Source: Cristatella mucedo
Lineage: Eukaryota > Bryozoa > Phylactolaemata > Cristatellidae
Direction: 5' to 3'
Length of the DNA stretch: 64,000 nt
Assembly (NCBI GenBank): GCA_009760855.2
Contig: WPIO01000008.1
Location: 5,897,501 to 5,961,500, forward strand
This document shows, piece after piece, positions 3,745 to 50,228 of the stretch. A program made the position numbers and the translations under genes. The notes beneath the pieces are model-generated. The model worked only from the letters and a program-made list of their open reading frames with translations, had not been told where the DNA came from and made no database searches. The number at the start of each line of letters is the position of its first letter. The stretch's first letter is position 1.

Positions 3745-3885
3745 AGGGTTTTTGCCCAGCGTTTAAGGTGCTCGCCCCAGCCAAGGTCTGGCCGAGTTTG
3801 TAGGCTCGAGCCCTGCGGCGGCGCATGTGAAGCGCCTGAATAGAGACGTAAGTTCTCTTAGGGCGCTATACAAATGAATCGATAG
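3745..3885 (+). mobile_element. S1 SINE: tRNA-like head plus LINE-type hairpin tail
   Basis: The head keeps an A-box-like segment (agcgtttaaggtgctcg) and a B-box-like segment (aggctcgagccc). It is followed by gaagcgcctgaatagagacg, aagttctcttagggcgct and atacaaatgaat. The stem GCGCC/GGCGC and the inner AGAGA/TCTCT pairing are both intact. Same architecture as the copies at 23300, 26865 and 50094. It is transcribed by RNA polymerase III if active. Confidence 0.8.
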
Positions 3886-4249
3886 TTTCTTTTATATTTT
3901 ATCCCGACACTCCCCTCAAACGCTCGCTAAGACAAACGCACGGACCTCGCAGCGTACACCGGGCTCTACTGCATAGGTAGCGGCTCGCCGGTAAAGGCTC
4001 CCGGCTAAGGCTCAGCAGAAACCCCTAGTGCTTGCCGAGTCGCCCCCTCTCTCCGCGCGGAGAGCGGGGGGGGGGGGGTGGGTGACTCGGTGGGCTCTCG
4101 AGCGCTCTCTGCGCGCCCGACAGCCTCTTCGCTTAACGCCCTTCGCGTCCGGAGAGAAAAGGCGCGGGAGAGAGCGATGCTCAAACGCTAGCAGCAGTCC
4201 GCGAAAAGCGGGCTCGGTTAAACGGAAGTAGCCTAATAGCTCAGGGACC

Positions 4250-4440
4250 GTCTTACTAATTGGGCCGGGTTAGCCCAGGAGTTAAGGTGCTGCCTCTTGA
4301 CAAACGAGGTTATGGGTTCGAATCCTGCAGTTGGGCGATCCCGTATTGCCAACTGCAAGCGATGGTGACAGCCGACGGTCCTTCTGCCGCTAAACAAATG
4401 AGGCTGTTAAATCAGCTAAGATCTATTTACTTATCGCCCG
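4250..4440 (+). mobile_element. S2 SINE: tRNA-like head plus distinct 3' domain
   Basis: The head has a good B box (GGGTTCGAATCC, near 4315) and an A-box-like segment (ttagcccaggagttaagg). It is followed by gggcgatcccgtattgcc, then the family-specific 3' domain (gtccttctgccgctaaacaa, gaggctgttaaatcagct) and a short T/A-rich tail. The head resembles a tRNA but lacks a proper acceptor stem and continues into the SINE body, so it is not a functional tRNA gene. Confidence 0.8.
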
Positions 4441-5534
4441 TGGCTCGAGGCGCCGAACTTTGGAAGGAAATTTACATCTGTCAGAAGAAAATTTAAAGCA
4501 CGCAGCGCGCGATGCCGGACTAATTAAAAAAAATTACGAATTACAGCTGAAATGGATAAAATGAATGAAATTCAGCCGGGCGGCGCCCGCACGGAAGTGA
4601 CTCGGGCAACGCCACTTGAGCATGCGCCGTGTGCTCGAGAAGTGCTGCATGAACAGAGGGAGGAGGACCCGTGGACAGCCCCCCGGCCCGGCCCGGCCCC
4701 CCGAAACCCTCCCCGGCTCCCCTGTGAAGCTCCGCGAGCGACCGGCTCACTGGCCATCGAGCGTCCGGGCCATCGAGAGACGAGGACGAAGACTCTCTGG
4801 TGGGGGGATAATTCTACGGGGCGGCCGGGCGCCGCGATTCCACTGGGTGCTGCGCTCGATCCGCGATGCTGCAGTCAGCATCGCTGGCGGCTCCGCCACC
4901 TGAGTCGCTCGCGGCGGCCGATCGTTGTGGTTTGTGTTTCTGTGTAGGTGGCGCACGATCCTAAATCATTGGACTCGCCGCGATCGTTCAGTGCAGGCAG
5001 GCCGGTAGTGCTCTGCACCAACCCAGGGCCGAACAGCTGGTGGATGTGGCCTAGGGACCGGCCAGTGCCCAGCTGTGGTCTGGCGGCTGCGGTTTGGACA
5101 CGGGCCGGCTTTGTTCTTCCGCTAACCCACGGGGATGAGCTGTGGCTGGGAGGGAGTGAAGAGATTGGAGCCCCGGCCAGGAGAGAACGGCTGCGTTGGG
5201 AAGCGCTGTAGGTGCCTTCGAAAATGCACGATTTGTGCCAAATCCGTTATGATACGTTTCCTTCTAAGCGAGGATTGAGCTTGCTGCTCAGCCTAATAAT
5301 GTACCGCAACGTATTTCCGCCTGCGGCTCCACAGAGCCCCCAGAGACCAAGCGGTCGTTGCGTAGGCAGGCGAGTTTTCTGCAGCATTTGTTGCACACTC
5401 GGAGTCCGAGCGGCTCGCAGTGTGCAACTTAACTGCACGCCGGTCACAACGGACCGAAATGGCGGCTAACATCCGTTCGGGCGTGGCCGCCGCTCTTGGT
5501 CCTCTGCTTGAAGCCAGCCGCCGAACCGTACAGA

Positions 5535-5558
5535 GGGGGGGGGGGGGGGGGGGGGGGG
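5535..5558. repeat. Poly(G) run
   Basis: An almost uninterrupted run of about 24 G, followed by TGGGGG. It could form G-quadruplexes and is error-prone in sequencing. Shorter G runs occur at 4064-4078, 12217-12228 and 41556-41567. Confidence 0.9.
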
Positions 5559-5676
5559 TGGGGGAGCTCTTAAGCACCGGCATACCGTCCACTGCATTGG
5601 ACTCGCTCGAGAGCACTCGCTGACCGACTGTCTGACCCTGGGCGGCGATCACCTAGGACGGTCTACCGTGTAGCGG

Positions 5677-5715
5677 GCGCTCCGCTGACCGGAGGCTGGC
5701 CGGTCAGCGGAGCGC
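5677..5715. repeat. Perfect 16-bp inverted repeat, 7-nt loop
   Basis: The left arm GCGCTCCGCTGACCGG (5677-5692) is exactly reverse-complementary to the right arm (5700-5715), with spacer AGGCTGG. It is very GC-rich and stable as a hairpin or cruciform. It is not followed by a T run, and no adjacent gene is defined. Confidence 0.9.
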
Positions 5716-5928
5716 TGCAGTGAGGAGGGGAGGCGGCTCGGCCGCCGGGCCGAGCCGAGTGAAACTAGATGACTGCTCAGTTGCTGCTTGGGATAGAACG
5801 CGTGGGATAGAGGCTGGCCGTGTTTTGTTAGCGTGTTCAGTTTCGGGGGCATCTAGTGCTTACGCATATGCCCACGTGCCCCCTCGTTCGCCGTTTCGAC
5901 AGACCTCTTTCCCTTAATCATTCTCTGC

Positions 5929-5940
5929 TCTCTCCCTCTC

Positions 5941-5991
<51 letters not shown>

Positions 5992-6003
5992 TCTCTCTCT
6001 CTT
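5929..6003. repeat. (TC)n microsatellite
   Basis: An almost pure CT repeat, interrupted by a few TCCC and TTTC variants at the edges. Confidence 0.95.
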
Positions 6004-7690
6004 TATCCGCTCTGCATTTTCTTATTTTTCGCTTTCATAACCTCCCTCACTTATTTTCGGGTTCTGCGCTTCCAAGAAGGTCGCCGACATCGCGTCCTTT
6101 AAGTCGGTCCATAATGGCCCTCGCCATGTTGTACCTCAAGCGTAGCTTCGGGCAGCTGGAAAGTCATCAGAGCCTTCCGTTCCATCATTATCGCCAATGA
6201 TTTCGAACAGACTCCTTTGTCTTTGGGCACTCGGCAGGCATTTGGTAAGCCATTATGTGCTTCCATTTGCTCTTTGGTCCGGTCACATCCCTGCGCTACT
6301 CAGCAAGTATTTGCACAGCCGGCTTGTGCTTCGATTGCTTTTGTCAATACCCGCACACTTCGGCCCAGCCTGCGAGCTCTTCTCCGCGCTCTCACCCATG
6401 CGCTCACACCGGCTCACTTTTCAGTGGCTGCAGCTCGTAGGCGGTGGAGTGGGATGGGCCAGCAGCAAGAGCGCTGTGGATCCATCCGCCCTCCGATTCA
6501 AGTTTGCTGCAGCTACAGGTCTGAAATAGCTTACGTAGCCATAGGAACGGCCTTGACTGCGTAGCCACCATGCTTGCAGGTGCGTGACAGGTGGAAGGCG
6601 ACTGAAGAGCCACGAGGCACAGCTAGCGAGTCCAGTGCGAGCGCCAAGGCACGCGTTTGCGGCGATGACTGCAGGCAGCGCGACGGCGGCAAAAATTGAA
6701 TGCCCAGACCTTAAAACCAAGCCCGCGTCCTTAACGCAGAGGAGTCGCATTTTCCAAAGACACCGAGGTCTGCATCTGCGCAGTGCCACTCACAGCGTCC
6801 GACTACCGCCATTGCAAATTGCTTCTAATAGGGTCTCGACTGCAGAGTAGGAAGCATCCAATTCCTTATTATTATAACTCAATAATCGCTCGCCGCCTCT
6901 GGAACTGTCGCAATCTGACAGATTTAGCATGCCAGCGTTTCCCCACTCCCCCTAACAAGAATGCCGACCTCGAGCAGACTAACTAAAGAAGCCTCACATA
7001 ACCATATGAGGTACATGTCCAGGCTTTCCTATTTTGGCAACTTTGGCTACTTCTCTAAGCTCTAACATTAATAACTTCGGAGGATTTCCCTCGTCTTATC
7101 CGCATCAGTTGCTATAGCAATATTGTCTTCATCGTCGTAACTGGCTGCCATCACAGCACCGAGAGCTTCAGCGCTTCGCTGTCTAAAACACTGGCCTGTT
7201 CAGTTCAACGGCACTTTACTTGGCCCGACACTGGCGAAGACCTTCAGCCTTACATATTGAGAGGCCTCAAAAGCTAGAGCCAGATTAAGGCTCAGTGCAC
7301 AGGCGAGTAAGAGCAGCCATCCACGACCCGTTGCACAGGCGATTGCGATTGCGACTTTTTCTGCTCGTTCGTGAATACATCTCACCGGTATAGTCATGTC
7401 CGCCTTAAATTCAATTAGACAATGAGCTGTGACAGACACAATCCAGCTAATCTATCAGCTTAACACACACCCACCTGAAGACCTTCGAATTACAGTGAGC
7501 AATTAATTACGGCGAATCGGAGTAGGACATCCAATCCTTTCGCTTTTAAGCTCACGGCGTGGCTTCCTGCACGTCGTGAGTTTTTCCAGCTATCGTATGA
7601 ACTGGTAGTACATACTTCAAGAGCAGCATGATCGAAGATTAAAAATGCAAAGCAGCTTGAGCAGAAGATTACAAATATAAAGCTTCGGAG
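6004..7690. other. No gene recognised
   Basis: Short overlapping ORFs on both strands, none above about 120 codons and none with a recognisable motif. The minus ORF 7439-7200 has a hydrophobic segment (GWLLLLACALSLNLALA) but no other support. Confidence 0.4.
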
Positions 7691-7698
7691 CCGCATAG

Positions 7699-8102
7699 GA
7701 GCAGCATCGGAGCAGCCTCAGAGCAGCATCGGAGCAGCCTCAGAGCAGCATCGGAGCAGCATCGGAGCAGCTTCGGAGCAGCTTCGGAGCAGCTTCGGAG
7801 CAGCATCGGAGCAGCTTCGGAGCAGCATCGGAGCAGCATCGGAGCAGCATCGGAGCAGCTTCGGAGCAGCATCGGAGCAGCCTCAGAGCAGCATCGGAGC
7901 AGCTTCGGAGCAGCATCGGAGCAGCATCGGAGCAGCCTCAGAGCAGCATCGGAGCAGCCTCAGAGCAGCATCGGAGCAGCCTCAGAGCAGCATCGGAGCA
8001 GCTTCGGAGCAGCATCGGAGCAGCCTCAGAACAGCATCGGAGCAGCCTCAGAGCAGCATCGGAGCAGCTTCGGAGCAGCATCGGAGCAGCTTTGGAGCAG
8101 CA
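7699..8102. repeat. 11-bp minisatellite, about 37 copies
   Basis: The unit is GAGCAGC plus one of three 4-base endings: ATCG, CTCA or TTCG. The phase is kept through about 400 bp with very few other changes (one GAACAGC, one TTTG). Because 11 is not a multiple of 3, the minus-strand frames read an 11-residue repeat (SEAAPMLLRCC-like) without stops, producing the apparent ORFs 7872-7669 and 8210-7938. I treat these as repeat translations. Confidence 0.95.
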
Positions 8103-8569
8103 GTGAATCGTCCCATCAATTGGAGTAGCGGTCACGGGGCAAGTTACCACCGTTGCGAACTCGATAACATCAATGGCCGGCACTGCAAGAGCGATCGTTT
8201 CGTGCATCACTTCGGTCAGTCAGGGTATCAGGGTATCAAACTCCTGAACGCTACCTGTCGCCAGTTTCACGCCCTCGCCTGTAAAACCATGCACCCCGCT
8301 GAAGCCAGCAAATGATTCCGTGTTTTCAAAAGCCAGTGCAAAAGTTGTCTTCGGAAGGGGGTTAGAGGGGATTACAACCGAATCGCGCTCGCTGTGCGGA
8401 TGCGATATGGAGTCAGCTCAAACGGCTCACGATTCGAGATGATCAACTTTCACTCAAATAAATTCTAAGTAATCATAAAATACGATGCCCGCGGTCGGCC
8501 TGAGCTCGTAGACGTGTCAACATGCATCTATCGAAAAGCGGCAGGCAGTGGTCGCAGAGAGTTTAGAGT

Positions 8570-8616
8570 ACGTCGAGCAGAGAAGCAGCTGGTCGGGCTG
8601 CGGCTCTGCTCGACGT
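8570..8616. repeat. Hairpin: 13-bp plus 5-bp stem, 7-nt loop
   Basis: The arm ACGTCGAGCAGAG (8570-8582) pairs perfectly with CTCTGCTCGACGT (8604-8616). Inside it, GCAGC pairs with GCTGC across a 2x2 internal loop, leaving loop TGGTCGG (8590-8596). A few further pairs can form outside. It is shorter than a usual miRNA precursor. No coding gene is adjacent. Confidence 0.85.
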
Positions 8617-9229: not shown

Positions 9230-9345
9230 ATTTCAGTACAGTATTTTTCATGTATGGCACCCTAAGAGCTAGAAATCTCTTTCTGAGCACAGCACAAATG
9301 GCAGAATGCAAGCACTTGAGCTGCTCATAACAGTAACGTGTACAA
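9230..9345 (-). mobile_element. Decayed LINE-A tail, minus strand
   Basis: The reverse complement of the tail is still visible (tggcaccctaagagc, aaatctctttctgagcac), followed by weakly similar UTR sequence. It is strongly diverged, so an old copy. Confidence 0.5.
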
Positions 9346-10806: not shown

Positions 10807-11484
10807 AATTCTTATCTGTCATACCTAAAAGCGGTGAGCACGACCTTTCAGTGCGCTGCTTCATGCGGAACCAGTGCAGGTCGGTTAGAAATGGTGTAAT
10901 ATTGAAGTCTAGATGGAATGCCAAAAAAGTTCTTGGACTAACTTGGCTGTGATGTCTGTTTCCAGGCATGCACACATTTCTGCAGAATTAGTTGCTGAGA
11001 ATAGACTGAATTGACTGCGAAGCTGCCACGGTCGACAAGCGAACGGTATTTTTAGAGCACGGTACGATGCGTCCGTGCAGAGGCTGCATGAGATATCCTG
11101 GCTGAGCCAATTTTTAGGGTAAGGCTTTCCCATTTTCTCCAGGTCATCGAGGCCGCGCATATCCGCAGCCATGGCGTCCGCCGCTGTCATTTCGAGCTTT
11201 TCCGGCGACATTGCATTGACTGACGCCAATCGTCCGCCAATGCTAAGGGTCCGCTAATTTAGGCACGCGGCTACTCGGCTATAAGTGGATGCTGGATGCC
11301 CTTCTGCCGAAGACTGATTTCCATATGCGCTTGCGTTCGGCGCTCCTGAAATGGTAACTTTCCTTCGTAGCGCAGGTCTGCGCTTCCTCGGCCCTCGCCC
11401 ACGCTTGCCGGCGAACGTTCGAGCGACCAGAGATACAGTCAAACTGATCCTGGCCGGAAGTGGAACCACAGCGGATTGCTCATA

Positions 11485-11940
11485 ATAATAATAATAATAC
11501 ACTTGATAAAGCACTCTCAGAGAACTCAATTTCTTTCTAGGCTCTTTACATTTGCTGAAAAGGAAGCACGATCGAATGGTGAGTGGAAATATGCTTGATA
11601 AGCGATATGAATGACATGGTTAGGGGTTACGTGTACAGTGTCAGCATGCAAGTGTGGTCAGTGGCAGCATGCATAGTGTCAGCATGCATAAGCACATAAA
11701 GGACAAATCACAGGGACCCTCTAAATGCTGGCATAAATATGTGCGTTTTTAATTTCTTATTAAATGTGGTCGTCAGGAATGCTGTGACGCAAGTCGGGAG
11801 TGAGTTCCAGGTTTTGGGAGCATACGAACTACAGACACGGTCTCTAACTGATTTGAGGTTTGTACGAGGTATAGATAAACAGTTAGATTACGAAAAGCGG
11901 GTGGTACGATTCTTGGCCTGGTGGGGGAGTAGATATATAT
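11485..11940 (-). mobile_element. LINE-A 3' fragment, minus strand
   Basis: Plus-strand order is (AAT)n, reversed tail hairpin (gcactctcagagaactcaat, ttctttctaggc), the UTR blocks, then the end of the coding region. That coding end includes the reversed conserved C-terminal stretch (gagttccaggttttgggagc, corresponding to APKTWNS on the minus strand). The 5' part is missing, typical of truncated reverse transcription. Confidence 0.75.
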
Positions 11941-14904: not shown

Positions 14905-15345
14905 ATCTACTCCCCCCACCAGGCCAAGCTTCGTACCACCGGCTTTTCAGAATTTAACAGTTTACCAATACCTCGTACAAGCTTCAGATCCTTTGGAGAC
15001 CGTGCATTTAGTTCGTATGCTCCCAAAGCCTGAAACTCATTCCCGACTTGCATCACAACATTCCCTAACTTGACCGCGTTTAAAAGAAACTTAAAAATGC
15101 ACCTATTTAGGATAGGATTTAGTGGGTCCCTGTGATTCGTCCTTTATGTGCTTATGTGTGCTAACACGGCGGATGCTGCCACTAACCACACTTGCATGCT
15201 GACCCTGTGCATGTCACCCCTAACCATGTTATTCATGTTGTTTATCATGCATGGTATTACTCACCATTCAATCGCGTTTCCCTTTGCAGCAAATGTAAAG
15301 CGCCTTGAAAGAGATCTCTGAGGGCGCTTTATCAAATGTATTAAT
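14905..15345 (+). mobile_element. LINE-A 3' fragment
   Basis: Starts within the C-terminal coding part (tctactccccccaccaggcc; YAPKA before a stop near 15030), continues through the UTR (accatgttattcatgttg) and ends in aagcgccttgaaagagat, tgagggcgctttatcaaatg and an AT-rich tail. The ending CTTTATCAA places it with the younger subfamily. 5'-truncated. Confidence 0.8.
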
Positions 15346-15394
15346 ATTATAATTAATATTGTAGACGTGTAGGATGGGATGTCAGCGTTTATAA

Positions 15395-16449: not shown

Positions 16450-16705
16450 AATAATAATAATAATAATAATAATATTGCACTTGATAAAGCGCCCTCAGAG
16501 AACTTAATCTCTTTCTAGGCGCTTTACATTTGCTGCAAAGTGATACGCAATAGAATAGTAAGTAAAATCATGCTTGAAAAACAAACAAAATGAATAATAT
16601 GGTTAGGGGTGACATGCACAGGGTCAGCATGCAAATGTGGTTAGTGGCAGCATGCACAGTGTCAGCACGCATAAGCACAACAAGGACGAATCACAGGGCA
16701 AGGGG
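16450..16705 (-). mobile_element. LINE-A 3' UTR fragment, minus strand
   Basis: (ATA)n, then ttgataaagcgccctcagag and aatctctttctaggcgcttt, then the UTR blocks including tagtggcagcatgcacagtg. This is the younger tail form (CTTTATCAA in reverse). No coding region is left. Confidence 0.85.
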
Positions 16706-19039: not shown

Positions 19040-19172
19040 TCGAGTGTGTAACGCCGTAAGAGAACTTAATCCCTATTCAGGAGCCTCACGTATGCCACGG
19101 GACTCGTGTCCACGACCTCGGCAATACGGCCTTGGGCGGGTCGAACATCTTGACCACTGGGCCAAACCAGCG
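19040..19172 (-). mobile_element. S1 SINE, minus strand
   Basis: gtaacgccgtaagagaactt, aatccctattcaggagcc is the reversed hairpin tail. cgggactcgtgtccacgacc carries the reversed B-box region, and ccttgggcg ... tcttgaccactgggccaaac carries the reversed A-box side. The A/B spacing matches the other S1 copies. Confidence 0.75.
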
Positions 19173-21897: not shown

Positions 21898-22087
21898 TTT
21901 CGCGTAAAAGGACAGTGGAGCTGGCGTTGCCGGCGCACTACCGTGCAGTCCTCCTTAGCAATTGATAAAACATTTAGCCTAGCCAAGGAAAAGAGAAGGC
22001 TATCGATAAAAAATACTCGCTGAGTCTTACGTCCGGCAGGCCTCGTCTTAGCCCCATCGCTAGAAAACTGGTGGCATCACCCTGAAA

Positions 22088-22355
22088 GAACGCCTCTGCG
22101 TCTTAGCCAAGGAGGTAATGTACTCGCTCTTCCCGACGCGGATTGTGGGTTCGAGTCCCGCAGTGGGCGATCCTATATTGATCCAATCGTGTTTCCTTTG
22201 CAGCAAATGTAAAGCGCCTAGAAAGAGATTGAGTTCTCTGAGGGCGCTTTATCAAGTGTGTTATCATTATTATAGTGTCCACTACCGGCGGTGATGATAG
22301 CCATTAAGGCTCTTCTGCCGCTACGGAAATGAGACTGTTAAATCAGTTGACCTTT
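22088..22355 (+). mobile_element. S2 SINE interrupted by a LINE-A tail
   Basis: The head (tcttagccaaggaggtaatg, B box gggttcgagtcc) runs to gggcgatcctatattg. The S2 body resumes at ctaccggcggtgatgatagc and continues with ggctcttctgccgctac and gagactgttaaatcagttg. The interruption is the separate element at 22179-22266. Confidence 0.85.
22179..22266 (+). mobile_element. LINE-A tail (about 88 bp) nested in an S2 SINE
   Basis: Contains only the last UTR bases (tttcctttgcagcaaatg), the full hairpin (aagcgcctagaaagagattg ... gagggcgctttatcaagtg) and ttatcattattat. It is of the younger tail form. It landed in the body of the SINE at 22088, so it is the later insertion. Confidence 0.85.
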
Positions 22356-23299: not shown

Positions 23300-23455
23300 G
23301 TTTTAGTTTAGCTCAGTGGTTAAGACGCTCGCCCCGACCTAGGTCAAGGTGAAGGTACACTACGGCCGATGTCGTGGGCTCGAGCACAGCGGCATATGGG
23401 AAGCGCCTAAATAGAGATTCAGTTCTCTTAGGGTGTTATGCAAATAAATTATAGA
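23300..23455 (+). mobile_element. S1 SINE
   Basis: A clear A-box segment (tagctcagtggttaagacg) is followed by cgccccgacctaggtc, then a B-box region (gtcgtgggctcgagcac) and the tail ggaagcgcctaaatagagat, cagttctcttagggtgtt, atgcaaataaat. The tRNA head is the best preserved of the S1 copies. Confidence 0.85.
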
Positions 23456-24444: not shown

Positions 24445-25175
24445 GATAAGGATACCACGTCCAAGTTGGTCCATGCATTCGTGACATCCCGTCTTGACTT
24501 CTGCAGCTCACTGCTTACTGGCCTACCAGCATGTGCGATCGGGCGATTGCAGCTAGTGCAAAACTCCGCAGCTAGGCTTGTCTGTCGTGAGCGTCGCAGT
24601 TGCCACATCAAACCACTTCTCGCCGACCTGCACTGGCTACCAGTCAAGCAACGGATTGACTTCAAGGTTTTGTCGCTCACTTTTAGGTCACTTCATTCTT
24701 TGGCTCCAGCCTACCTTTCAGATCTACTCCCCCACCAGGGCCAAGCTTTGTACCACCCGCTTTTCGGAATCCAACAGTCTACCAATATCTCGTACAAACC
24801 TCAAGTCTTTTGGAGACCGTGCATTTAGTTCGTATGCTCTCAAAGCCTGGAACTCCCTCCCGACCTGCGTCAGAACATCCCCTGACCTGACCACATTTAA
24901 AAGGAACTTAAAAACACGCCTATTTAGGACAGCATTTAGTAGGTCCCTGGGATTCGTTCTTCTGTTCTTATGTTTGCTGACATTATGCATGCTGCCACTA
25001 ACCACATTTGCATGCTTACCCTGTGCATGTCACCCCTAACCATGTTATTCATTTCGTTTGTTTTTCAAGCATGATTTTACTTACCATTCAATTGCATTTC
25101 ACTTTACAGCAAATGTAAAGCGCCTAGAGAGAGATTGAGTTCTCTGAGGGCGCTTTATCAATTGCATTATTATTA
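24445..25175 (+). pseudogene. LINE-A copy, 5'-truncated, well preserved
   Basis: Begins in the region following the reverse-transcriptase core (TSKLVHAFVTSRLDF, from about 24457). It continues through the conserved segments QLVQNSAARLVCRER and DLHWLPVKQRIDFK, then needs one frameshift near 24740 to continue to LKAWNSLPTCVR (24840-24870). The UTR and the younger tail (cgcctagagagagattgag ... gggcgctttatcaattgc) end at (ATT)n. It is close in sequence to the copies at 36063 and 34463, so a young insertion, but it cannot move by itself. Confidence 0.9.
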
Positions 25176-25850
25176 TTTTGTCAATACAGACAGCTGTGGT
25201 TTCGCGATTCGTTGAATATTTTAAATGGCGAAGCCGACTCACAGAGTGAATGAGACTCGCTGAGGGAATGAGGTTCGCTTTTGCTTAGATGCTGCACGAG
25301 ATTCGTTGATAATTGAGTTCTTGGCTGCTCTTGCGATTGCTTGCCTTCGTGCCGCTGCGGCTACCTAAAAGGACTCTTATTTCAGATATACGTGCCAGAT
25401 CCTTAAATAGAGCAGCCGCGAGTTAACAAAGAAACCACCGAACGGGCTGTACTGCGCCAGTACTGCTACAGTACTGCGTACTGGGCCGCACTGCGAAAGG
25501 CAGGCGGCTCGCTGCTGCTCGCTCTATCTCCCGACTATCGACGATCCAGACTAACTCTCGTGACTGTCGAGTGTCATGACTACCGCGGCGTTATCTGCTT
25601 GGCCTTATTCGCTAGAGCGGTGATAACTTTAACTCGGTCGAAGGTCGACCTCGCGCATTGATTCGAGGGCTTGTGACTCAGCATCCCGTGAGCATTGGAC
25701 GAAGGCCCTGCGCTCTCGAGCGGTTGAGAGGCAGACAGTGGCTCTCTGTGGATGACTCGGCAGTCCTGCACACATCCACGCATTGGCGGCATCTGTGGGG
25801 GGGGGGGCATCGCGAAGCGTCCAAACCATTCGCCCCCTCGCGTATACTTA
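25176..25850. other. No gene recognised
   Basis: No repeat or gene is clear. A short repeated phrase (gagactcgctgagggaatga / gaggttcgctt) occurs near 25250. ORFs here are short and overlap on both strands. Confidence 0.4.
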
Positions 25851-25854
25851 TAAA

Positions 25855-25990
25855 TTATCTGATTTAGCAGCCTCGCTAGTGTAGCGACAGAAGAGCCTAA
25901 ACGGTTACCGCCGCCGCTTGCCGTGGGCAATAAAGGATCGCCCACCGCAGAATTCGAACCCACCGCCCCTCAATCGTGAAGAGCGAGCAC
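25855..25990 (-). mobile_element. S2 SINE, minus strand
   Basis: gatttagcagcctcgctag and agcgacagaagagcctaaac are the reversed 3' domain. gatcgcccaccgcagaattc and gaacccaccgcc are the reversed body junction and B box. cgtgaagagcgagcacctta is the reversed A-box side. All S2 landmarks are in the right order. Confidence 0.85.
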
Positions 25991-26750
25991 CTTAGCTTCC
26001 CCCTCTCGCGTATCCCTCCGCTCTTTCATCCGAGCCGAGCTCGCGCGCCCAGAGTAGGCGCACCGCTCCGAAGCTCGAGGCGCACGAGACGCGAGCGGCT
26101 CTCCGAGACTCCGGCTCGACCGACCGCGCGAGAGCCGAGTCGCGAGGCGGCGCCCCCGCCGCCGCTCGCGTGCTCGCGGACGTTCGATGACATTCGCCAG
26201 ACGGCCTTGCCGCGCTCGCGAACGCCCAGAGTCGCCTCACGCGAACGCCACGCAACGCGTCGCTCGCCGACTAGGCCGGCTTATCTAAGCCGGCTTTCGC
26301 TGCGCTGACAGACGAAGAGCGAGCTTCGCAGCAGCAGCGGCAGCAGCGGCGGGCGCACTCGGCGCTCAGCGGGCGGGCGCACTCGGCGCGTAACGCCGAT
26401 GCTTTTCGCGCTGCTCTGCACCAGCGCGCTTAGGGACTCTTCAGCGCCGAGTCCTAAGGCGTGTCGTGAGTGCGGATGCATCGCTAGTTTCGCCGACGCT
26501 GACCTGAAGTGTTCCGCTCAGTTTCTTTTTTAGCGCTGCACTGCGAGCGATACGCGAGGCCGCCGTTTCCACGCGACTGCTGCCGACGCTTTTCGACGCA
26601 CACCGGTTGGCACCCCTGCGGAGGCTGCCTAAAACTGAACGGGTTCGGCGGCGCGAGCGCCTTGCTGCGTCTAAGGGCAATTCCCGACAGCATGCCTCGG
26701 AGCGTCGCGGTGCGGCCACAGATGTGGTCCGCGAGAAAAATAAATTGTTG
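25991..26750. other. GC-rich block, no gene resolved
   Basis: CpG-rich sequence with arginine/alanine-rich ORFs on both strands (for example 26441-26719 minus). It contains a near-perfect palindrome at 26275-26294 (GCCGGCTTA TC TAAGCCGGC) and a small duplication ggcgggcgcactcggcgc near 26350-26390. It could be a promoter CpG island, but no exon is supported. Confidence 0.4.
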
Positions 26751-26864
26751 AGCGCCCCTTAGTCGCGTCGTGTGCGATAAGCGCGTAAAGTTAAGAAAGC
26801 GCAGCTGTCGAGGTAGTAATGCTCAGCAGGAAGACAGATAGTAAGCAGGCTGGGTGTATCTGGT

Positions 26865-26998
26865 TTGTCCCAGTGGTTAAGGTGCTCGCCCCTACCAAGG
26901 TCTGGCCGAGGTCGTGGACTCGTGCCCCAAGGTATACGCGAAGCGCCTGAATAGAGATTAACTTCTCTTATGGCGCTATACAAAAACAAAATTGTCAT
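26865..26998 (+). mobile_element. S1 SINE
   Basis: gtcccagtggttaaggtgct, then cgcccctaccaaggtctggc, then gtcgtggactcgtgccc, then the tail gcgaagcgcctgaatagaga, acttctcttatggcgctata, caaaaacaaa. The hairpin stems are largely retained. Confidence 0.85.
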
Positions 26999-35069: not shown

Positions 35070-35150
35070 TAATAATAAGAATAGATCGCTTGTATAGCAT
35101 GCTAAGAGAACTAGATCTAAATACAGGCGCTTTACAGCTCCACGGCAAGA
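35070..35150 (-). mobile_element. S1/LINE-type tail, minus strand
   Basis: aataataagaatagatcgct, tgtatagcatgctaagagaa and ctagatctaaatacaggcgc read in reverse as GCGCCTGTATTTAGAT ... TTCTCTTAGCATGCTATAC. The 'CCTG..T' side is closer to the S1 form than to LINE-A, but no tRNA head is found. Confidence 0.5.
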
Positions 35151-35159
35151 AACTCGATG

Positions 35160-36060
35160 CCCGAGGGTCAGTGATTTGCATGATATCAAGCATGCAAAGC
35201 AATCAAGTATCAGGCTTGGGCCAGCCCTGCTAAAGCAAATAAGAAGGCACTCACATCCACCGGTCAGTATAACCTCTGGCTAGTAACATGCACTGAATCA
35301 TGCACATGTACGAACTCAAAGCCTGCTGGAACAAAAAAGACAAGTTAACTGGGTTGAGAGGAAAGCTTACCGGAATAGATTCGTCTGTATCTATGACTTA
35401 TAAATTGCAAAGGCACTAGATGTAGTGACCGCAGCTAGAAGCGAGTTCTAGGTGCATCTGAACAGGAGATTTGATCACCCGAGGATTAGCATTCGGTGGT
35501 ATCCAGGCACAACGATACAATGCAAGTTTTGCAACACATATCACACTCAATGAATAGTAATTTTTTTGGGAAAATGATAAAAAAAGAAACTGATCGACAG
35601 CGCGTTAGTTAAATTCAAAGCTGTCCAGCGAGAGCCAGTAATATGTGATACTTCGGAAACAACTGCTGGAAAAGAAGTCAAACTGAACAAAGACTCCTTG
35701 ACAAAACCTCGTCGCGAGAGTTAGGGCCCAGAGGTCCATGACATGTACACGTCTCGGCGACTCCTCCATCGCACTACTTTTCGCAGGACAACTGGGTGCC
35801 CATATGTGTCAGATAATGAATTGCTGGTCGGTGACATATGTCTGCTCCTGGTGTGACACATTAGCAGTCAAGATCTTGCGTGCTTGTGCCTGACACAATA
35901 AAAAGACTGCCTCTACAAGGCAATAAAACAGAAAACTCACGTAAGCATTAGTCTAAAGTTATGACACATACGACATATCAGTTCCAATACGAAGTAGTAA
36001 CTTAGACATTGCAAAAAAAGGTTTAGCGAACCCTGATTGACTAGTTTCGCCAATACAACT
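35160..36060. other. No gene recognised
   Basis: AT-rich sequence with no ORF of note and no repeat recognised. Confidence 0.45.
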
Positions 36061-36062
36061 AA

Positions 36063-37493
36063 CTCAAGCTTAGGGTAAACAACGACCTACTTAAGAATGC
36101 AGACATGGGTAGAGTGTCTCTGCTTGTTTTGCTTGATCTTTCGGCAGCTTTTGATACTATCGATCACAAAGTTCTTTTAGAGCGCCTCTCATCTCGCCTG
36201 GGCATCACTGGCACTGCTCTGCAATGGTTCAGATCCTATCTCAGCGGGAGACTCCACAGTATTGACGTAAATGGACGAAGATCATCTGAGGAACCTCTGA
36301 AATATGGTCTACCTCAGGGCTCCGTGCTAGGTCCGGTTCTTTTCACGGTTTATACTCTCCCTCTTGCTGATGTGATTGCCAAGCACAATCTAGGCTTTCA
36401 CTTCTATGCGGGTGACACTCATTTGTACCTTTGCTTTGATCCCTCACAGTCTTCGAGCACCTCAAATTCTCTCAACTCACTTGCTGCATGTATTGATGAC
36501 ATCCGCACATGGATGGCAGCAAATTTTCTAAAACTGAACGGTGATAAAACTAACTTACTAGTTATGGGCAAACCCAGTGTGCTTCAGAATTGGAAAGGCT
36601 GACGCTCAAAATTGGTTCTGCCAGCATATCTCCTGTTGAATCAGCTCGAAATCTAGGTGTCATGTTCCAAAGTGACTTCTCGCTAGACGACCACGTCAGC
36701 TCCACAGTCAAATCTGCCTACTTTCAGCTACATAACATTGCTAAAATTCGGGCTTGTTTAGATAAGGATGCCACGTTCAAGTTGGTCCATGCATTCGTGA
36801 CATCCCGTCTCGACTTCTGCAACTCACTGCTTACTGGCCTACCAGCATGTGCGATCAGGCGATTGCAGCTGGTGCAAAACTCGGCAGCTAGACTTGTCTG
36901 TCATGAGCGTCGCAGTTGCCACATTACTCCACTTCTCGCCGACCTGCACTGGCTACCAGTCAAGCAACGGATTGACTTCAAGGTTTTTTCGCTCACTTTT
37001 AGGTCCCTTCATTCTTTTGCTCCAGCCTATCTCTCAGATCAACTCCCCCACTAGGCCAAGCATCGTACCACCTGCTTTTCGGAATCCAACAGTCTCCCAA
37101 TACCTCGTACAAACCTCAAATCCGTTGGAGACCGTGCATTTAGTTCGTATGCTCCCAAAGCCTGGAACTCCCTCCCGACTTGCGTCAGAACATCCCCTGA
37201 CTTGACCACATTTTAAAAAGAACTTAAAAACACACCTATTTAGGACAGCATTTGGTGGGTCCCTGTTATTCGTCCTTCTGTTCTTATGTTTGCTGACATT
37301 ATGCATGCTGCCACTAATCACATTTGCATGCTGACTCTGTGCATGTCACCCCTAACCATGTTATTCATGTTGTTTATCAAGCATGATATTACTCACCATT
37401 CAATTGCATTTCCCTTGGCAGCAAATGTAAAGCGCCTAGAAAGAGATTAGGTTCTCTGAGGGTGTTTTATCAAGTACATTTTTATTATTATTA
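36063..37493 (+). pseudogene. LINE-A retrotransposon, best copy, reverse transcriptase mutated
   Basis: A 5'-truncated non-LTR retrotransposon of the CR1/L2/Rex1-type group. The reverse transcriptase region shows LLDLSAAFDTIDH (near 36130), QWFRSYLSGR, LPQGSVLGPVLF (near 36310) and the catalytic box as FYAGD (near 36400). The family has Y/FADD, so the first of the paired aspartates is replaced by glycine and the enzyme should be inactive. NFLKLNGDKTN follows. A frameshift near 36595 leads to NLGVMFQSDFSLDDHV, QNSAARLVCHERRSC and LHWLPVKQRIDFK, and a second near 37052 leads to the C-terminal end. The UTR and younger-type hairpin end in a T/A-rich tail. No endonuclease domain is present. Confidence 0.92.
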
Positions 37494-38850: not shown

Positions 38851-40180
38851 TTCACAGGATTAGTTAGAACTTCATAATGCCGGTGAACCACTCGTTATCA
38901 TCAATCCTTAAGCATACAACGCTTAAATTTGGCTGACAATATTCAATTAATCCGAACGTATGGTACCCCTTCGGTTGCAATGACTCATTCGATAGACAAG
39001 ACTTACGTGCAGTTGGTCGGCTGAAGATCGAAACCACTCAAACTATCAAACTTGTCTAAAATGCTTTCTCCCACCAAGTCTAGACGTTGCACTGAGCGAC
39101 CGGTAGTCGCAGCAAATAAAAGGGTGACAAGCAAACCTTATAGCTAAAACATAGCTGTCCTCAAGTCAGCAGTATAATTGCACTCCAAACCCCATCTCTA
39201 AGTTGAAGCTGCCCATAAAACAACATAAAGATAGACCACATGGCCTTTTTACTTTTGCCTCTGTAGTGCTTAAACTATTAGGAAGGATCAATGTAGCTAA
39301 AACTCAAGAGCTTGAACCAAGCACCGATAACGAAAGGTAAAGCACAGCCAAGGGGAAGTGGCTTGGTGTCAAAATTAAGTGGAGAGAGAAACCGTAGAAG
39401 ATGCTTTGGCTGATGCTGCCAAACGTACACAATGCGACAAAGACGCGGTGTTTCTCATCACTTCCAGGTTTGCTTATTCCCCCCCCAGCACACAACTAAA
39501 ATAAATTAAGTAGCTTAAGCAAGACTTTGCAAGGTGACAGCTAGACCTGGACCATGAAAGGTTAAGCAATCCTAAGAGACGTATTATTTGGTTTTTAACA
39601 AGTACAGTATAAACCTTTAAGGTAACCGGTGGACTTCTAATAAAACTATTGATTGGTATCACCCTGCTACTTCCTACTGTCGATAGGATTGTACGGCAGT
39701 GGTTTAAGCAGGAAAACGGGTCAGAGCACGCAGAAAGTTCTCATCATGCTATGTATGGCAAATTGTACATACTAAGTCTGGGAGGACAAATATCGTGACA
39801 CAAAGCCTCCACCCGCACTACAAGGATCAACGAGTTCATACAGAATTGTACAAACTTTGTCAGCCTAATATTGGGAATACATTAAGATCGAGGGGGAGGA
39901 TTAGGTGAGCTATCGCTGTAAGATTTACATGTTTTGAATAGGTTTCTCAGGTGGAATAAGGAGATTACTTTAAGCATTCACCAGGAGAAAGAAGTCTGTA
40001 GCTTTGTGACAAAATTCTTGTAAAAAAAAAGTTCAGCTCTTTGTGCTCTTTCTGGTAGCCCACAACTGCTGTAATCCAAACAAAAACGATACAGCCATCA
40101 AAGTGGCAGAGAGATTTTAGCAACAACAAAAACTCTAACGGCTCATACGCATTCTTCAAACTGTCAAAGAATATATGCTG
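38851..40180. other. No gene recognised
   Basis: AT-rich sequence. The minus ORFs 39495-39304, 39662-39474 and 40159-39965 have hydrophobic stretches, but all are below 65 codons and lack other support. Confidence 0.45.
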
Positions 40181-40182
40181 AT

Positions 40183-40330
40183 TTAACAGCCTCTTTTATA
40201 TAGCGACAGAAGACTCTTTGCGGTTATCAACACTGGTTGCATTGGCATTAAAGGCTCGCCCACCACAAGATTCGAACCCACGACCTCAGGACCGAGGTCG
40301 TGAAAAGCAACAGCCTTAGCTAAGGAGCCA
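40183..40330 (-). mobile_element. S2 SINE, minus strand
   Basis: gatttaacagcctcttttat, atagcgacagaagactcttt, the body, then gctcgcccaccacaagattc, gaacccacgacctcaggacc, gaggtcgtg. The inverted arms CACGACCTC ... GAGGTCGTG stand where a tRNA anticodon arm would be. Confidence 0.85.
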
Positions 40331-40384
40331 TCACAGCTATACACTCACTAAACAGCACTTGAGGCCAGTGACTCCTTCAGCTAC

Positions 40385-40490
40385 AGCACAAGGCTGTGAC
40401 CACACTTTGCAGCAAATGTAAAGCGTCTAGAAAGATATTAAGTTCTCTGAGGGCGCTTTATCAAGCGCATTATTATTATTATTATTACCA
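40385..40490 (+). mobile_element. LINE-A tail only (about 105 bp)
   Basis: ccacactttgcagcaaatgt, aaagcgtctagaaagatatt, aagttctctgagggcgcttt, atcaagcgcattattattat. A very short 5'-truncated insertion of the younger type, next to the S2 SINE. Confidence 0.85.
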
Positions 40491-44544: not shown

Positions 44545-44605
44545 CCTAAGCAAATGTGAAGCGCCTAGAAAGAGATTGAGTTCTCTGAGGACGCTTTATC
44601 AAGTG

Positions 44606-44640
<35 letters not shown>
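44545..44640 (+). mobile_element. LINE-A tail only
   Basis: caaatgtgaagcgcctagaa, agagattgagttctctgagg, acgctttatcaagtgcatta, (TTA)n of about 10 units. Younger tail type, inserted next to the purine tract. Confidence 0.88.
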
Positions 44641-44643
<3 letters not shown>

Positions 44644-45325: not shown

Positions 45326-45557
45326 AGCTATTGCATCGCGAGCACTTTTGCTGCTAATCAAGGAACCGGAGCAGCGCAGCTCAATGACTAAAGCCTCTAA
45401 AAAAACGAGATGGAGCGTCCCAGAATGTTCCCCTGGAAAAAACTCTGGATCTGCACGCTGGAGAATTTCTTTTAAGACATATTTTTGTAGAGCCTGGAGC
45501 CTCCCGATAGTTTCTTCGGATCTAAAGAGAAATAGAAACTGGCTGCCCCTCTGCAGC

Positions 45558-45872
45558 CATGGTTTGGCCCAGGGGTGAGTGCTGGCCTCAAACGACCGAG
45601 CTCGTTGTCCCGAGGTCTCCTGCGGCATATGCAAAGCGCCTGGATAGCCGTGATGGCACACTGGGTAAGGCGGTTGCTTTCAAGACCTCGGTCCCGAGGT
45701 CGTGGGTTCGATTCCTGTGGTGGACGATCCTTTATCGCCACTGCAAGCGGCGCGATAGCCATAAAGGCTCTTCTGTCGCTATACAAAAAGAGGCTGTTTA
45801 AGCAGCTAGGATTTATTTATTTATTTATTTTTATTTATTTATTTAAGTTCTCCTATGGCGCTATACAAATAA
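45558..45872 (+). mobile_element. S1 SINE split by an S2 SINE
   Basis: The S1 head and first half of the tail occupy 45558-45645 (tttggcccaggggtgagtgc ... atgcaaagcgcctggatag). The second half of the S1 hairpin reappears at 45845-45872 (aagttctcctatggcgctat, acaaataaat). Everything between is a complete S2 SINE, so S2 entered the loop of the S1 hairpin. Confidence 0.8.
45646..45845 (+). mobile_element. S2 SINE nested in S1, with (TTTA)n tail
   Basis: gatggcacactgggtaaggc is the A-box side. The perfect arms GACCTCGG/CCGAGGTC sit at the anticodon-arm position. The B box (gggttcgattcctg) is followed by gatcctttatcgccactgca, the 3' domain (ggctcttctgtcgctataca, gaggctgtttaagcagct) and (TTTA)n. 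This is the most complete S2 copy and shows what its true 3' tail is. Confidence 0.88.
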
Positions 45873-46467
45873 ATATATAAATAATTGACATATATATGCA
45901 TACAAATAAAAAATATATATATATAAATCAAAAAATATATATACATATGTATGCAGTTGGAGAGCCTACAGCTGCGCACCGAAGGCACAACGTTCCACAC
46001 GCTTACAAAGTAACATACCCAGAAAAACGCTTCGGAGAAACGCTTCAGACATGCATGAGAAGGACCAGGCATGCCTCTTTAGATGCGTCTAGAAATAATT
46101 ACCTCTTTAATCTCTCCAAAAATTTAATCAGCCTCTTTTAGAAAAGTGCACGCCCCATCTCCGTAGACCAACTCCGAACGTGTGCCGCGAATGCTGCAGC
46201 ACCACTCCAACGTCACGCAGAGGGACATTGTCAAGGTCATCTTGCGGGCTAGAGAAGCAAAAGATTAATGCACCGAGGCTAGCGGACAAAATATCGAACG
46301 AAGCTGGCATTCGACTATTTAACAAAAACGCAAGCTGCCAGCATGAGCAGGAGTCGCCAAAGCGAATTACCTTAAAACGCGCGCAAACAGCGTCGCGTAA
46401 CTTTCCGCCGGTAGTCGCGCGCTCGTCGTCTTCCGTCGCAAGGCTGGGTGGGGGCACCTACGGGAAA

Positions 46468-46505
46468 CCGCCGCCGCCGCAGCCGCAGCCGCAGCCGCCG
46501 CCGCA

Positions 46506-46540
<35 letters not shown>

Positions 46541-46575
46541 AGCCGCCGCCGCCGCCGCAGCCGCCGCCGCCAGTC
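46468..46575. repeat. (CCG)n trinucleotide repeat with CAG/GCA interruptions
   Basis: About 35 triplets, mostly CCG, with CAG steps. The plus ORF 46180-46641 would read a proline/glutamine run here, and the minus strand reads arginine. The upstream part of that ORF has no known domain, so I leave it as a repeat. Confidence 0.9.
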
Positions 46576-46639
46576 AACAGGCAACGGAGCAACCCCGGCG
46601 GCGGCGGCCTTAGGACGTTGGCGGCGGTCTTAGGACGTT

Positions 46640-47035
46640 AGCGGCAGCTCGCGATAAGAGTAAATTTGATTTCTCGATTGTGCTGGCTTTGATTAAAGCG
46701 AAAGTCTTCTGGCGGTCGGGTCATCCGCCGTTCAACGGCAAGACGTATCGCTGTTTACACCCCATTCACCCGTGCCAGTTACGTCAACTGGCTCGGGGTC
46801 CATGTCGCATTCAAAGAAAAGCCCGACTGCAGCCCAAGCTTCCGAAATTAGCGCCCGATGAAAAAATTAGCCGCTGAGACAAATATATCGCCGCCAGCGG
46901 CAATGGTGGCCGTGGTGGTTGCGGGCCCAACCGTGTTTTTGTAACCATTGCGTCTCTTGGAAGACAGCAAAGGGAAGCCTGCGATGCCGATGCGTCGTAA
47001 ACATGGGTGGGACCTGCTAATTCAGTTAAGAAAGA
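46640..47035. other. No gene recognised
   Basis: Mixed sequence with no repeat or exon recognised. Confidence 0.35.
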
Positions 47036-47037
47036 CG

Positions 47038-47117
<80 letters not shown>

Positions 47118-47214
47118 GGGCGAGAGAGAGGGACAGAGAGGACGAGAGAGATGACGAGAGAGCGAGAGAGGGAGATATGAAGAGAAAGTGAAAGAGAGAG
47201 AGAGAGATTGAGAA

Positions 47215-47260
<46 letters not shown>

Positions 47261-47424
47261 AGAGAGAAAGAGAGAAATAGAGATGGAGAGAAATAGAGAT
47301 GGAGAGAAAGAGAGAGATGGAGAGAGAGAGAACGAGAGAGATGGAGAGAGAGAGAGAGAGAGGTGGAGGAGAGAGAGAGAGAGAGAGATGGAGGAGAGAG
47401 AGATGGAGGAAAGAGAGATGAAGG

Positions 47425-47520
<96 letters not shown>

Positions 47521-47572
47521 GAGAGAGAGATGGAGAGACAAGAAAGAGATGGAACGAGAGAGAGAGAGAGAG
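47036..47572. repeat. Long homopurine (GA)n tract, about 540 bp
   Basis: Nearly all purine on the plus strand with only scattered T or C (GAGATGGAG blocks). The pure (GA)n core is at 47425-47514. It is mirror-symmetric in many places, so able to form triplex DNA. All ORFs across it (up to 225 codons) are repeat translations. Confidence 0.95.
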
Positions 47573-48475
47573 AAGGCGGGCGATTGGCCGCAGTCACCGA
47601 CGAAGCCAAGTCCGGTGCACACGAATGTACGCCCGCATCGACCTTGCAAGTTGGCTTTGAATTGAGGACGCATCATCTGTGTTTTTGCCTCTTTTCTGCG
47701 CATCAGAGTTTATCATGCGAATAGCAGCTGAGTTTGGCTCATTTCCGTGAAATCGAAGGGTCTACTGCCGGTCGCCGCTTCCGATATGTTGCAAGCACTT
47801 TCTCGACTAGCGGGTGCTACGCGCGTTGAAGACGAGGAATGCGAATGCATTTTGGCCAAATATCGGCCCCTGCAGCTTAAATCCCAATAAGTCAGAATAA
47901 GTTCCAATCCAACCGGAAGCATTTACTTCAACAAGCCGCTAGTGATTCGCTCTCCACCCGCGAGTAGCGCAGCGGCGCGTCGTCTGGTGCTCGTCCTCCG
48001 CCAACTGCGTCTAAAATAAGCGTGCGCTCCAACCAGCGGTTAAAGTAGTGTCAGCCTCTTTGCGACCAAACTCGCTGCGGAGCGCATGTCCCCAGTAGAC
48101 GCCACAAACCTGTTGTGGAAGCTGCTGGCTACCGTAGACCTACTTGTCTTTGTCTCCCGTCATGCTTCACGCCGGTCGGTCTCTTCTCTAAGCATCCTGT
48201 GCAATCTAGGTCTAGTGAATCATGGGATTCGCAAGTTCGCAACTTCCTAACTGCATGCCAAACTATTTCTTTGAGTTGATCCTCGTGACGATTTTTATTT
48301 CGTACTGCTGAGGGTACCAATTTGAATTCTCGCACCGCCGACTGACAAGCTGCGCCATCTAGCGACCCGACAGCAGCGCCACGGAAAGATCCAGTTAGTT
48401 TGCTGCCTTGTCACTTCCGATGCCGCAATCGCTTCAAGGGGGCGCCTGGGTGTGAATAAAAAATAGAGCGAGAGA
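47573..48475. other. No gene recognised
   Basis: Unassigned sequence with short ORFs only. Confidence 0.35.
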
Positions 48476-48479
48476 AATT

Positions 48480-48590
48480 ACTGAATGCAAATCCCGCGGT
48501 CAGAATTTGAACCCGAGACCGCGGAGCCACTACTACGCGGCAGCGTCTGCTCGAGACCGCTCGTTATCAATACTTTCGACAGCGCTCTGC
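48480..48590 (-). mobile_element. tRNA-like sequence (possible SINE head or tRNA pseudogene)
   Basis: On the minus strand, AACGAGCGGTCTCGAGCAG resembles the A-box side of a long-arm tRNA (Leu/Ser-like). About 50 nt later, TCGGGTTCAAATTCTG resembles a B box. An inverted pair CCGCGGTC/GACCGCGG surrounds the B box. The acceptor stem is not closed, and no S1 or S2 body follows. It could be a third SINE family or a decayed tRNA copy. Confidence 0.4.
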
Positions 48591-50093
48591 CGTCAAGGTG
48601 GCTGTCCTTAGCCAAACTCGGCATGCACGGTGTGCAAGTGAATAAGTTCCTGCTGAGTAAAGAGCAGCGCTGGTCATTCAACTCACAGCTAGCTCAGCAA
48701 AATTTAGAACTCCGTAGGCACGAGCCGCAGACGGGAGGTCGACGAGGCCTGAGCGACCATAACCGGAAGTAAGACCTCGCGTCCAAGGCGGCGCTGCCAT
48801 TGCGCTCAAGCTGCTCGCATCCGCCTTTGCTTACGACGCAGGGTGTAAATGCTCGACAATTCGAAAGCCGTTGGGTCCTCTGAACTCACGCGGGCACGAG
48901 TCGCTTCCGGCAGAAGTCTCTGCCGAAGAACAGCGAGCCCATTCATTAAATTTTGTACTCCTGTACGAGATCGGCCAGCCGCGGGGCCATTAGCTTCCGC
49001 GTGGGCTCCTGGGATTAGTAAAAACAGCCACGCCGTCCATACGATCTTCTGACGTGTGCAACTGGTCGCCCACGTAAGAGCAAAACAGGTGCAGTTCCTG
49101 TCGAGCTTCGAGACGAAAAGCCTTGAGGCTTTGAGTGACTCACAGGAAACTCCCTAAGCACACTACGTTCGCAGTGTCGTTTAATGACTAGCAGGTTCGC
49201 GTATGTTAAAAATATTCCTCCGTCGTCCCGTACTGTTCCTCCGAAATAGCATCCGGTAACACGAACGCGTATGACCCGGGACACAACCGGAGGCGGCATC
49301 TCTAAGGGCACCGACCAAGAGCGGATGTGAACTGCCTAGTGAGCCATGAGTGGTTTAACTTAGATTAACCGGAAGTGAGCGAAATGCTATCGGATGGGGG
49401 TCAGCAATGCATTGCGACCGCTGCTGCATACACGAACTCGCCGTATTTAGTGAATTTCGAAATTATTTCATTTTTAAGGCTTCGCACCTCCACTCGGTTC
49501 ACTCGACATTTTCGCGATCTCCGACGAACGAAAGGTAAAACTTATTCTTTGCAGATTCGACGCGAGACTTAAGTCACGTGACCACTGTCGGAGCAGGAGC
49601 GCACGCGCGCTGCTCGAGCGCACGTAACATCACTGACAATGGGCAGATCCAGTGGCGAGATTGCGCGCTCTTTACCGTGCGATACTTATTTACTCTGAAT
49701 GGGCCCAAGTTCCGCACGGAGCTTTCCTTCGCTCGCTTTCGTTCGCTGTCGCGCTCCTCCTTGACTCGCAGCTGCACTTCGCCGTCCCGGCGCAGGAGCA
49801 CCTCTGGAAGCGACGCTGCAAACCCCCCCCCCCGCGAAGCTGAATCGATCCTCGCGAAGAGAAGCCGGCTGCTCGGCCGACCCGAACGCTTCGCCCGGCT
49901 GTACGATGGGTCGGTACCGAGCGCCAGCCTCCAGCCAGCGCCAGGCGCGTGGGCGGCGGCGCAGCCACGCACCATCGAGGCTCGAGGGCGCCAAGACTGA
50001 GCCAGGGAAGGGAGAGCGCACCACGACCCCTGGCGAGCCGCCGCCAACGATCGCAGGCCGGACGCTTAGAACGCGCGAAGAGAAGGAAACGCG

Positions 50094-50228
50094 CTGGGTT
50101 GGTCCAGCGGTTAAGGTGCTCGCCCCGACCAAGGTCTTGCCATGGTCGTGGGCTCGAGCCCCGCGGCAGATGTGAAGCGCCTGAATACAGATTAAGTTCT
50201 CTTGGGGTGCTATACCAACGAATTACAT
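50094..50228 (+). mobile_element. S1 SINE
   Basis: gggttggtccagcggttaag, gtgctcgccccgaccaaggt, catggtcgtgggctcgagcc, then ccgcggcagatgtgaagcgc, ctgaatacagattaagttct and cttggggtgctataccaacg. A complete head and tail, with one arm change in the hairpin. Confidence 0.88.

Follow-up and report, generated by a model that had tools for sequence, protein, structure and literature searches.

Which long interspersed nuclear element (LINE) supplied the 3′ tail of S1, a short interspersed nuclear element (SINE) that recurs along a stretch of the Cristatella mucedo genome, and which LINE moves it today? The stretch, hereafter the window, comprises 64,000 nucleotides of contig WPIO01000008.1 (positions 5,897,501 to 5,961,500), and our genome searches covered the 572 Mb assembly of 688 contigs. 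The original prediction held that S1 is the SINE of a local element, LINE-A, and that a hairpin at their 3′ ends is the recognition signal. We consider a LINE/SINE partnership through an L2-type 3′ hairpin, with an S1 tail belonging to the lineage of another element, LINE-C, to be the likely answer. LINE-A was probably wrongly named as the source of the tail, and it may be the present driver. Each of the six places assigned to S1 holds a real copy, that at 45558 being split by a second SINE-like repeat, S2:

3747-3879, plus strand: S1 copy 1, from self-comparison and pattern matches; tail core at 3830-3872.
19045-19172, minus strand: S1 copy 2, degraded, from self-comparison and pattern matches.
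23301-23451, plus strand: S1 copy 3, a variant with a longer head; longer heads occur in fetched copies too.
26860-26984, plus strand: S1 copy 4, which served as query for the first genome search.
45557-45880 (ends approximate), plus strand: S1 copy 5, split by the nested S2, from reading of the sequence; S2 lies inside the hairpin and leaves tail halves at ~45625 and ~45844.
50092-50225, plus strand: S1 copy 6, from self-comparison and pattern matches.

S1 is a genome-wide SINE-like family. Its members are about 140 bases long, dispersed, present in many copies and devoid of coding capacity. Two tail strings had been quoted for it originally; the first has 13 matches in the window at no more than 3 mismatches (0.06 expected) and the second has 14 (0.04 expected). 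Genome-wide, the 44-base S1 core of the TTGGGG type occurs exactly 362 times, and S1 core patterns yielded 508 hits at 3 mismatches and 715 at 1 mismatch, with reversed controls of 0 in every case. The S1 B-box region is present in 33 of 36 hits fetched as a non-random pick from the 508 and 715, and 13 of 16 hits in one fetched batch were S1. A second subfamily, S1-Y, was met among the fetched pattern hits, and its consensus was read by eye; the S1 consensus was built from 18 of 30 loci, using plus-strand matches only. Used as query against the genome, a single S1 copy returned 2152 first-look candidates, the S1 consensus 1181 and the S1-Y consensus 2502, with 40 of them scored per search. The A and B boxes of the S1 head were read by eye against the motifs of such boxes.

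The LINE copies in the window, with which relatives fetched from the genome were compared, are the following:

36063-37493, plus strand: LINE-A copy with reverse transcriptase, C-terminal part, 3′ untranslated region (UTR) and hairpin tail; hairpin core at 37430-37471.
24445-25177, plus strand: LINE-A 3′ part with hairpin tail (core 25118-25159) and fragments of the second open reading frame (ORF2); 92% identical to the copy at 36063.
14905-15355, plus strand: LINE-A 3′ part with a shortened hairpin, from self-comparison and tail scan.
16450-16698, minus strand: LINE-A 3′ end, from self-comparison and tail assignment.
11483-11934, minus strand: older LINE-A 3′ part, from self-comparison and tail assignment.
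44549-44632, plus strand: LINE-A tail-only insertion of ~80 bp, from self-comparison and tail scan.
60654-60734, plus strand: LINE-A tail-only insertion, with 81 bases identical to the LINE-A tail at 16454-16534.
866-1140, minus strand: LINE-B 3′ end, from genome search and alignment.
35081-35330, minus strand: LINE-C 3′ end (core 35091-35132), the best match of the S1 hairpin core.

LINE-A is abundant and, as an L2-clade LINE should, encodes an AP-type endonuclease and a reverse transcriptase in one ORF2. The open reading frame at 36063-36602 encodes reverse transcriptase (RVT_1, 2.3e-17), and an ORF2 reading of 843 residues from another locus, L050, carries Exo_endo_phos (3.3e-07) and RVT_1 (5.9e-32) together. 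A genome search returned 66660 LINE-A candidates; among the 150 scored, 146 have no internal stop and 4 have one. Thirty LINE-A tails, including a window copy, give a single consensus with the terminus (ATT)n. We take LINE-A to be L2-type by the resemblance of its tail and protein, an assignment that the spacing of a putative tail-binding motif, described below, would further support. The same hairpin is carried by many LINE tails in the window, and scans of the window and of fetched loci revealed further lineages that have it. LINE-B (20 loci including the window copy) is an older relative of LINE-A, and LINE-B2 (20 copies) is a sister set. The LINE-C set consists of the window copy and 20 fetched copies. 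ORF2 homology lies upstream of the tail in 6 of 8 fetched LINE-C copies, five with C-terminal ORF2 matches (~29-67% identity in pieces) and one, L139, with a match to the endonuclease part and the stretch that follows; none was found upstream of the tail in L142 and L144.

Tails scoring above 15 bits numbered 196 and were assigned by their upstream sequence to S1 (52), LINE-A (51), LINE-B (34) and LINE-C (23), with 36 left unassigned. In the 44-base hairpin core, LINE-C is the closest LINE for 51 of the 52 S1 copies, the remaining one being a tie. The same method returned 43 of 51 LINE-A, 30 of 34 LINE-B and 22 of 23 LINE-C tails to their own families, in controls that contain copies from which each consensus was made. 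The S1 consensus core is identical to that of LINE-C at 40/43 positions, to LINE-A at 37/44, to LINE-B at 35/43 and to LINE-B2 at 36/43, and bootstraps prefer C over A in 88% of core replicates and in 98.5% once CpG columns are removed. Identities for S1-Y are nearly equal to these. A further 33 S1 copies are also closest to LINE-C; they were found with S1-core patterns and so add little. Changes peculiar to LINE-A (an A-to-T substitution closing an A.A mismatch, an inserted T, and CAAGTG) are missing from the S1 consensus. S1 thus shares its 3′ end with LINEs of its own genome, as a SINE with a borrowed LINE tail should, and within that genome its core is closer to LINE-C than to LINE-A. On these alignments, the LINE-C lineage is the most likely source of the S1 tail.

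The fold itself was correctly anticipated. All five consensus tails (S1, LINE-A, B, B2 and C) are predicted to adopt the same two-stem hairpin, with z-scores from -4.0 to -5.5 that are nearly equal for S1 (-5.43) and LINE-A (-5.38); for LINE-B, 1 of 200 shuffles folded equally well. A 1x1 A.A mismatch lies below the lower stem in S1, B, B2 and C, and LINE-A pairs through it. For the eel pair, a crucial role of an internal loop in the stem is reported (PMC5135761). Three internal-loop bases are common to S1 and LINE-C alone. The apical stem-loop of S1-Y matches LINE-A in 16 of 17 columns and LINE-C in 17 of 17.

We propose that S1 is a nonautonomous retrotransposon that combines a head bearing RNA polymerase III A and B boxes with a 3′ tail acquired from an L2-type LINE. 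The hairpin at the 3′ end of S1 RNA, a natural candidate for the recognition signal, would be bound in trans by an L2-type ORF2 protein, and reverse transcription would start at the 3′ end of the S1 RNA at a nicked target. The 3′ stem-loop of zebrafish L2 elements is bound by the protein region lying between endonuclease and reverse transcriptase, and swapping the whole stem-loop abolished activity (PMC4176376). Replacing the loop in ZfL2-1 caused a sharp drop, replacing the stem left about half the activity, and mutating the loop of ZfL2-2 inactivated that element (PMC4176376). Between Exo_endo_phos and RVT_1, LINE-A has a W, an E at +16 and a Y at +19 within a basic stretch, a motif present in 17 of 5000 shuffles. 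The tail-binding region of ZfL2-2 has the same spacing, in its residues W325, E341 and W344 (PMC4176376); in LINE-A the conserved Pro is replaced by Leu and the last Trp by Tyr. Since the motif spacing and the apical stem-loop are both kept, use of S1 RNA by an L2-type ORF2 protein is plausible. Hairpin binding, mobilization in trans and polymerase III transcription of S1 are inferred. SINE/LINE pairs of this kind are widespread, according to a survey of 58 SINEs cited in PMC3747384.

Several observations weigh against a LINE-C-derived partnership as proposed. Over the full tail, identities of the S1 consensus are 52/62 with LINE-C, 50/62 with LINE-A, 50/61 with LINE-B and 51/61 with LINE-B2, and C is preferred weakly over A (68% of bootstraps, 0.68) and over B2 (0.56). 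The two comparisons together indicate that the hairpin points to C and that the flanks are undecisive. A better match of S1 to a different LINE had been named at the outset as an outcome that would refute the LINE-A pairing; in the core this outcome is seen, and across the full tail the difference does not settle the matter. The terminal repeat of S1 is AT-rich or (ATTT)n, and those of LINE-A, B and C are (ATT)n. The string ATTATTATT occurs 0.02 times per copy in S1 (n=48), compared with 0.47 in A (n=17), 0.35 in B (n=26) and 0.60 in C (n=15); ATTTATTT occurs 0.10 times per copy in S1 and in none of A, B and C. Among 19 further S1 ends, 5 have ATTT repeats, 1 has ATT repeats and 13 have neither. 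S1 thus lacks the terminal repeat of all three LINEs, which is why none of A, B and C is filed as its exact partner. For the eel pair, a requirement for the hairpin and the terminal repeat alike is reported (PMC5135761). For the description of the head as tRNA-like, the support is the by-eye reading of the A and B boxes; searches with the Rfam tRNA model matched neither the head at 20 S1 loci (E<=5) nor one short stretch of locus L014 (E<=10). Target-site duplications are not clear either: the stretch shared by S1 flanks averages 5.31, slightly above the 4.79 (standard deviation 0.16) of controls, and reaches at least 8 in 3 of 32 copies. Covariation among copies (88.8% of cells paired versus 89.0% in shuffles, in 40 hand-chosen cores of 158) gave no support for the fold. 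Neutral decay of the copies once inserted would be expected to give such a result, which leaves the pairing without independent proof; the support for the predicted two-stem fold comes from folding energy and from the sequence shared between tails. Finally, the best 40 LINE-C matches are only 84-88% identical to their consensus and so are older than S1, whose best main-type copies reach 96%.

This last point separates the origin of the tail from the question of which enzyme moves S1 now. Outside each family's own search set, median identity to consensus is 88.0% for S1 (14 of 17 copies, 3 being dropped for gaps), 89.1% for LINE-A (14 of 17, 3 dropped), 78.5% for LINE-B (8 of 10, 2 dropped) and 82.3% for LINE-C (3 of 4, 1 dropped); inside the sets, 0 of 35, 1 of 34, 2 of 24 and 2 of 19 copies, respectively, were dropped. 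The best copy in each family's own search set is at 95.6% for S1, 100% for A, 94.3% for B and 90.8% for C. LINE-B ages were obtained without a consensus search, and the family may have younger copies; of the four LINE sets examined, LINE-A is the youngest. Identity to the S1-Y consensus is 95-100% in all 40 scored copies and reaches 100% in two, along 145 and 147 bases. Thus the comparison of SINE and LINE ages places S1-Y and LINE-A together as young, with overlap in time, and the best-matching LINE-C apart and not obviously overlapping. The apparent age of LINE-C is too great for it to be the driver of S1-Y; given the youth of LINE-A, the present mover of S1 may be LINE-A or an unseen LINE. 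We put the chances roughly even that LINE-A powered the S1-Y burst, by cross-recognition through the shared stem-loop, and somewhat below even that an unseen LINE did so.

The alternative that survives best extends the second of these options to S1 as a whole: an unseen LINE, with a tail matching that of S1 fully, terminal repeat included, would move the family. The terminal repeat of S1, matched by none of A, B and C, favors such an element, as do 2 of the 36 fetched pattern hits in which LINE-like upstream sequence precedes an S1-like core (L105, and L107 over ~15 bases by eye). Against it, the B-box region accompanies the core in nearly all of that non-random pick, and L105 has no sibling copies, its next match being at 81%. 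L105 1-361 joins a LINE-B2 3′ UTR to an S1-like tail, and a candidate "LINE-D" family with an S1-identical tail, raised from this locus, was rejected when 20 fetched relatives proved to carry LINE-B-type tails; L105 is therefore a singleton chimera or a secondary event. It is possibly a single example of a template switch, the route proposed for tail acquisition in carp (PMC2653535). We regard the fully matching unseen LINE as a real but minority possibility.

That S1 is a dedicated SINE of LINE-A, with its tail taken from LINE-A, appears unlikely. The youth of LINE-A, with copies up to 100% of consensus, the youth of S1-Y and their nearly identical apical stem-loops would fit such a pairing. 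Of the original claim, S1 as a SINE-like element with an L2-type LINE tail and the hairpin as candidate recognition signal are supported, and LINE-A may drive S1 now. The nearer match of 51 of 52 S1 cores to LINE-C, the lack of LINE-A's own tail changes in the S1 consensus and the differing terminal repeats all argue against it as the tail source. One candidate fusion of a box-B-bearing head to a true LINE-A tail (22080-22273, the SINE-like part searched being 22080-22235), considered as a SINE family and rejected, has no second copy: none of the others among its 40 scored hits spans its junction by more than a few bases, in a search aimed at this junction and not at LINE-A-tailed SINEs in general.

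A related scenario is that LINE-A is altering its recognition tail away from the SINE's copy, by closing the A.A mismatch and changing the linker, so that an escape from parasitism would be under way with S1-Y still crossing the gap. Upstream matches of 60 bases or more accompany 49 LINE-A-assigned tails; the present form accounts for 41 of them (median 97.2% to consensus), a B/S1-like form for 4 (median 82.5%) and an intermediate one for 2, with 2 ties. Five of the six older-form tails sit on copies below 90% and one on a copy at 93%, and six present-form tails sit on copies of only 81-87%; with exceptions in both forms the trend is suggestive only, and we consider the escape scenario improbable. 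Chance or low-complexity resemblance of the hairpins, with which absent covariation would agree, is refuted by the match counts in the window and by the genome-wide counts against empty reversed controls, and its probability is negligible.

Other features of the window touch on these families. LINE-A insertions barely longer than the tail (~75-85 bases) occur at 44549-44632, 60654-60734 and 40405-40487; they are expected from early 5′ truncation, or perhaps represent a minimal element. Another LINE is represented by the reverse transcriptase at 59744-60313, which has ~47% identity with LINE-A across 220 residues. We take the reverse transcriptase and tail types in the window to be animal-like. 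The S2 family has its own 3′ hairpin, ending CGCTATACAAA, and is represented as follows:

45648-45843, plus strand: S2, second SINE-like repeat, with a box-B-like head, another 3′ hairpin (folded) and an (ATTT)n end.
40177-40343, minus strand: further S2 copy.
25848-25997, minus strand: further S2 copy.
58598-58749, minus strand: further S2 copy.
4271-4419, plus strand: further S2 copy.

Scans of the window gave no tRNA with ARAGORN and no Rfam hit at gathering level, and the open reading frame at 55495-56589 (364 codons) has no Pfam match. At 7681-8102, an 11-base tandem repeat of 38 copies is open in frame.

If S1-Y was moved by LINE-A, then an L2-type enzyme accepts a tail with a different internal loop, basal mismatch and terminal repeat, and this would set a bound on the strictness of "stringent" L2 recognition in nature. 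If LINE-A does not move S1-Y, the genome should contain another active LINE, as yet unseen. In either case, this one genome offers a SINE tail and several LINE tails as natural variants that could show which part of the hairpin is read.

Among known systems, the zebrafish elements ZfL2-1 and ZfL2-2 resemble LINE-A in having an L2-type ORF2 whose endonuclease and reverse transcriptase flank a basic region, and in the spacing of W, E and aromatic residue (PMC4176376). Recognition of the cognate loop was demonstrated experimentally for ZfL2, whereas the likeness of LINE-A is one of sequence, and the excerpt of PMC4176376 at hand describes no SINE partner for either zebrafish element. UnaSINE1 and UnaL2 of the eel (PMC5135761, PMC4176376) share, as S1 and its LINEs do, a 3′ stem-loop followed by a short repeat, and the UnaL2 stem has a small internal loop like that of the S1 tail; use of the UnaL2 tail was established by experiment, and the pairing of S1 is predicted from sequence. 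HAmo SINE and HAmo L2 of carp (PMC2653535) differ from S1 in several respects. The HAmo tails are one base apart and have in common a TAAATG terminal repeat and a GGAUA loop, whereas S1 is more distant from all the LINEs examined and its loop and repeat are different ones; the HAmo head is derived from tRNA-Lys, in contrast to the S1 head without a tRNA-model match. In its architecture the carp pair is nevertheless like S1, an L2-clade LINE and a short SINE joined by a common hairpin tail of ~42 bases, and S1 is an ordinary, well-supported case of this known type of partnership.

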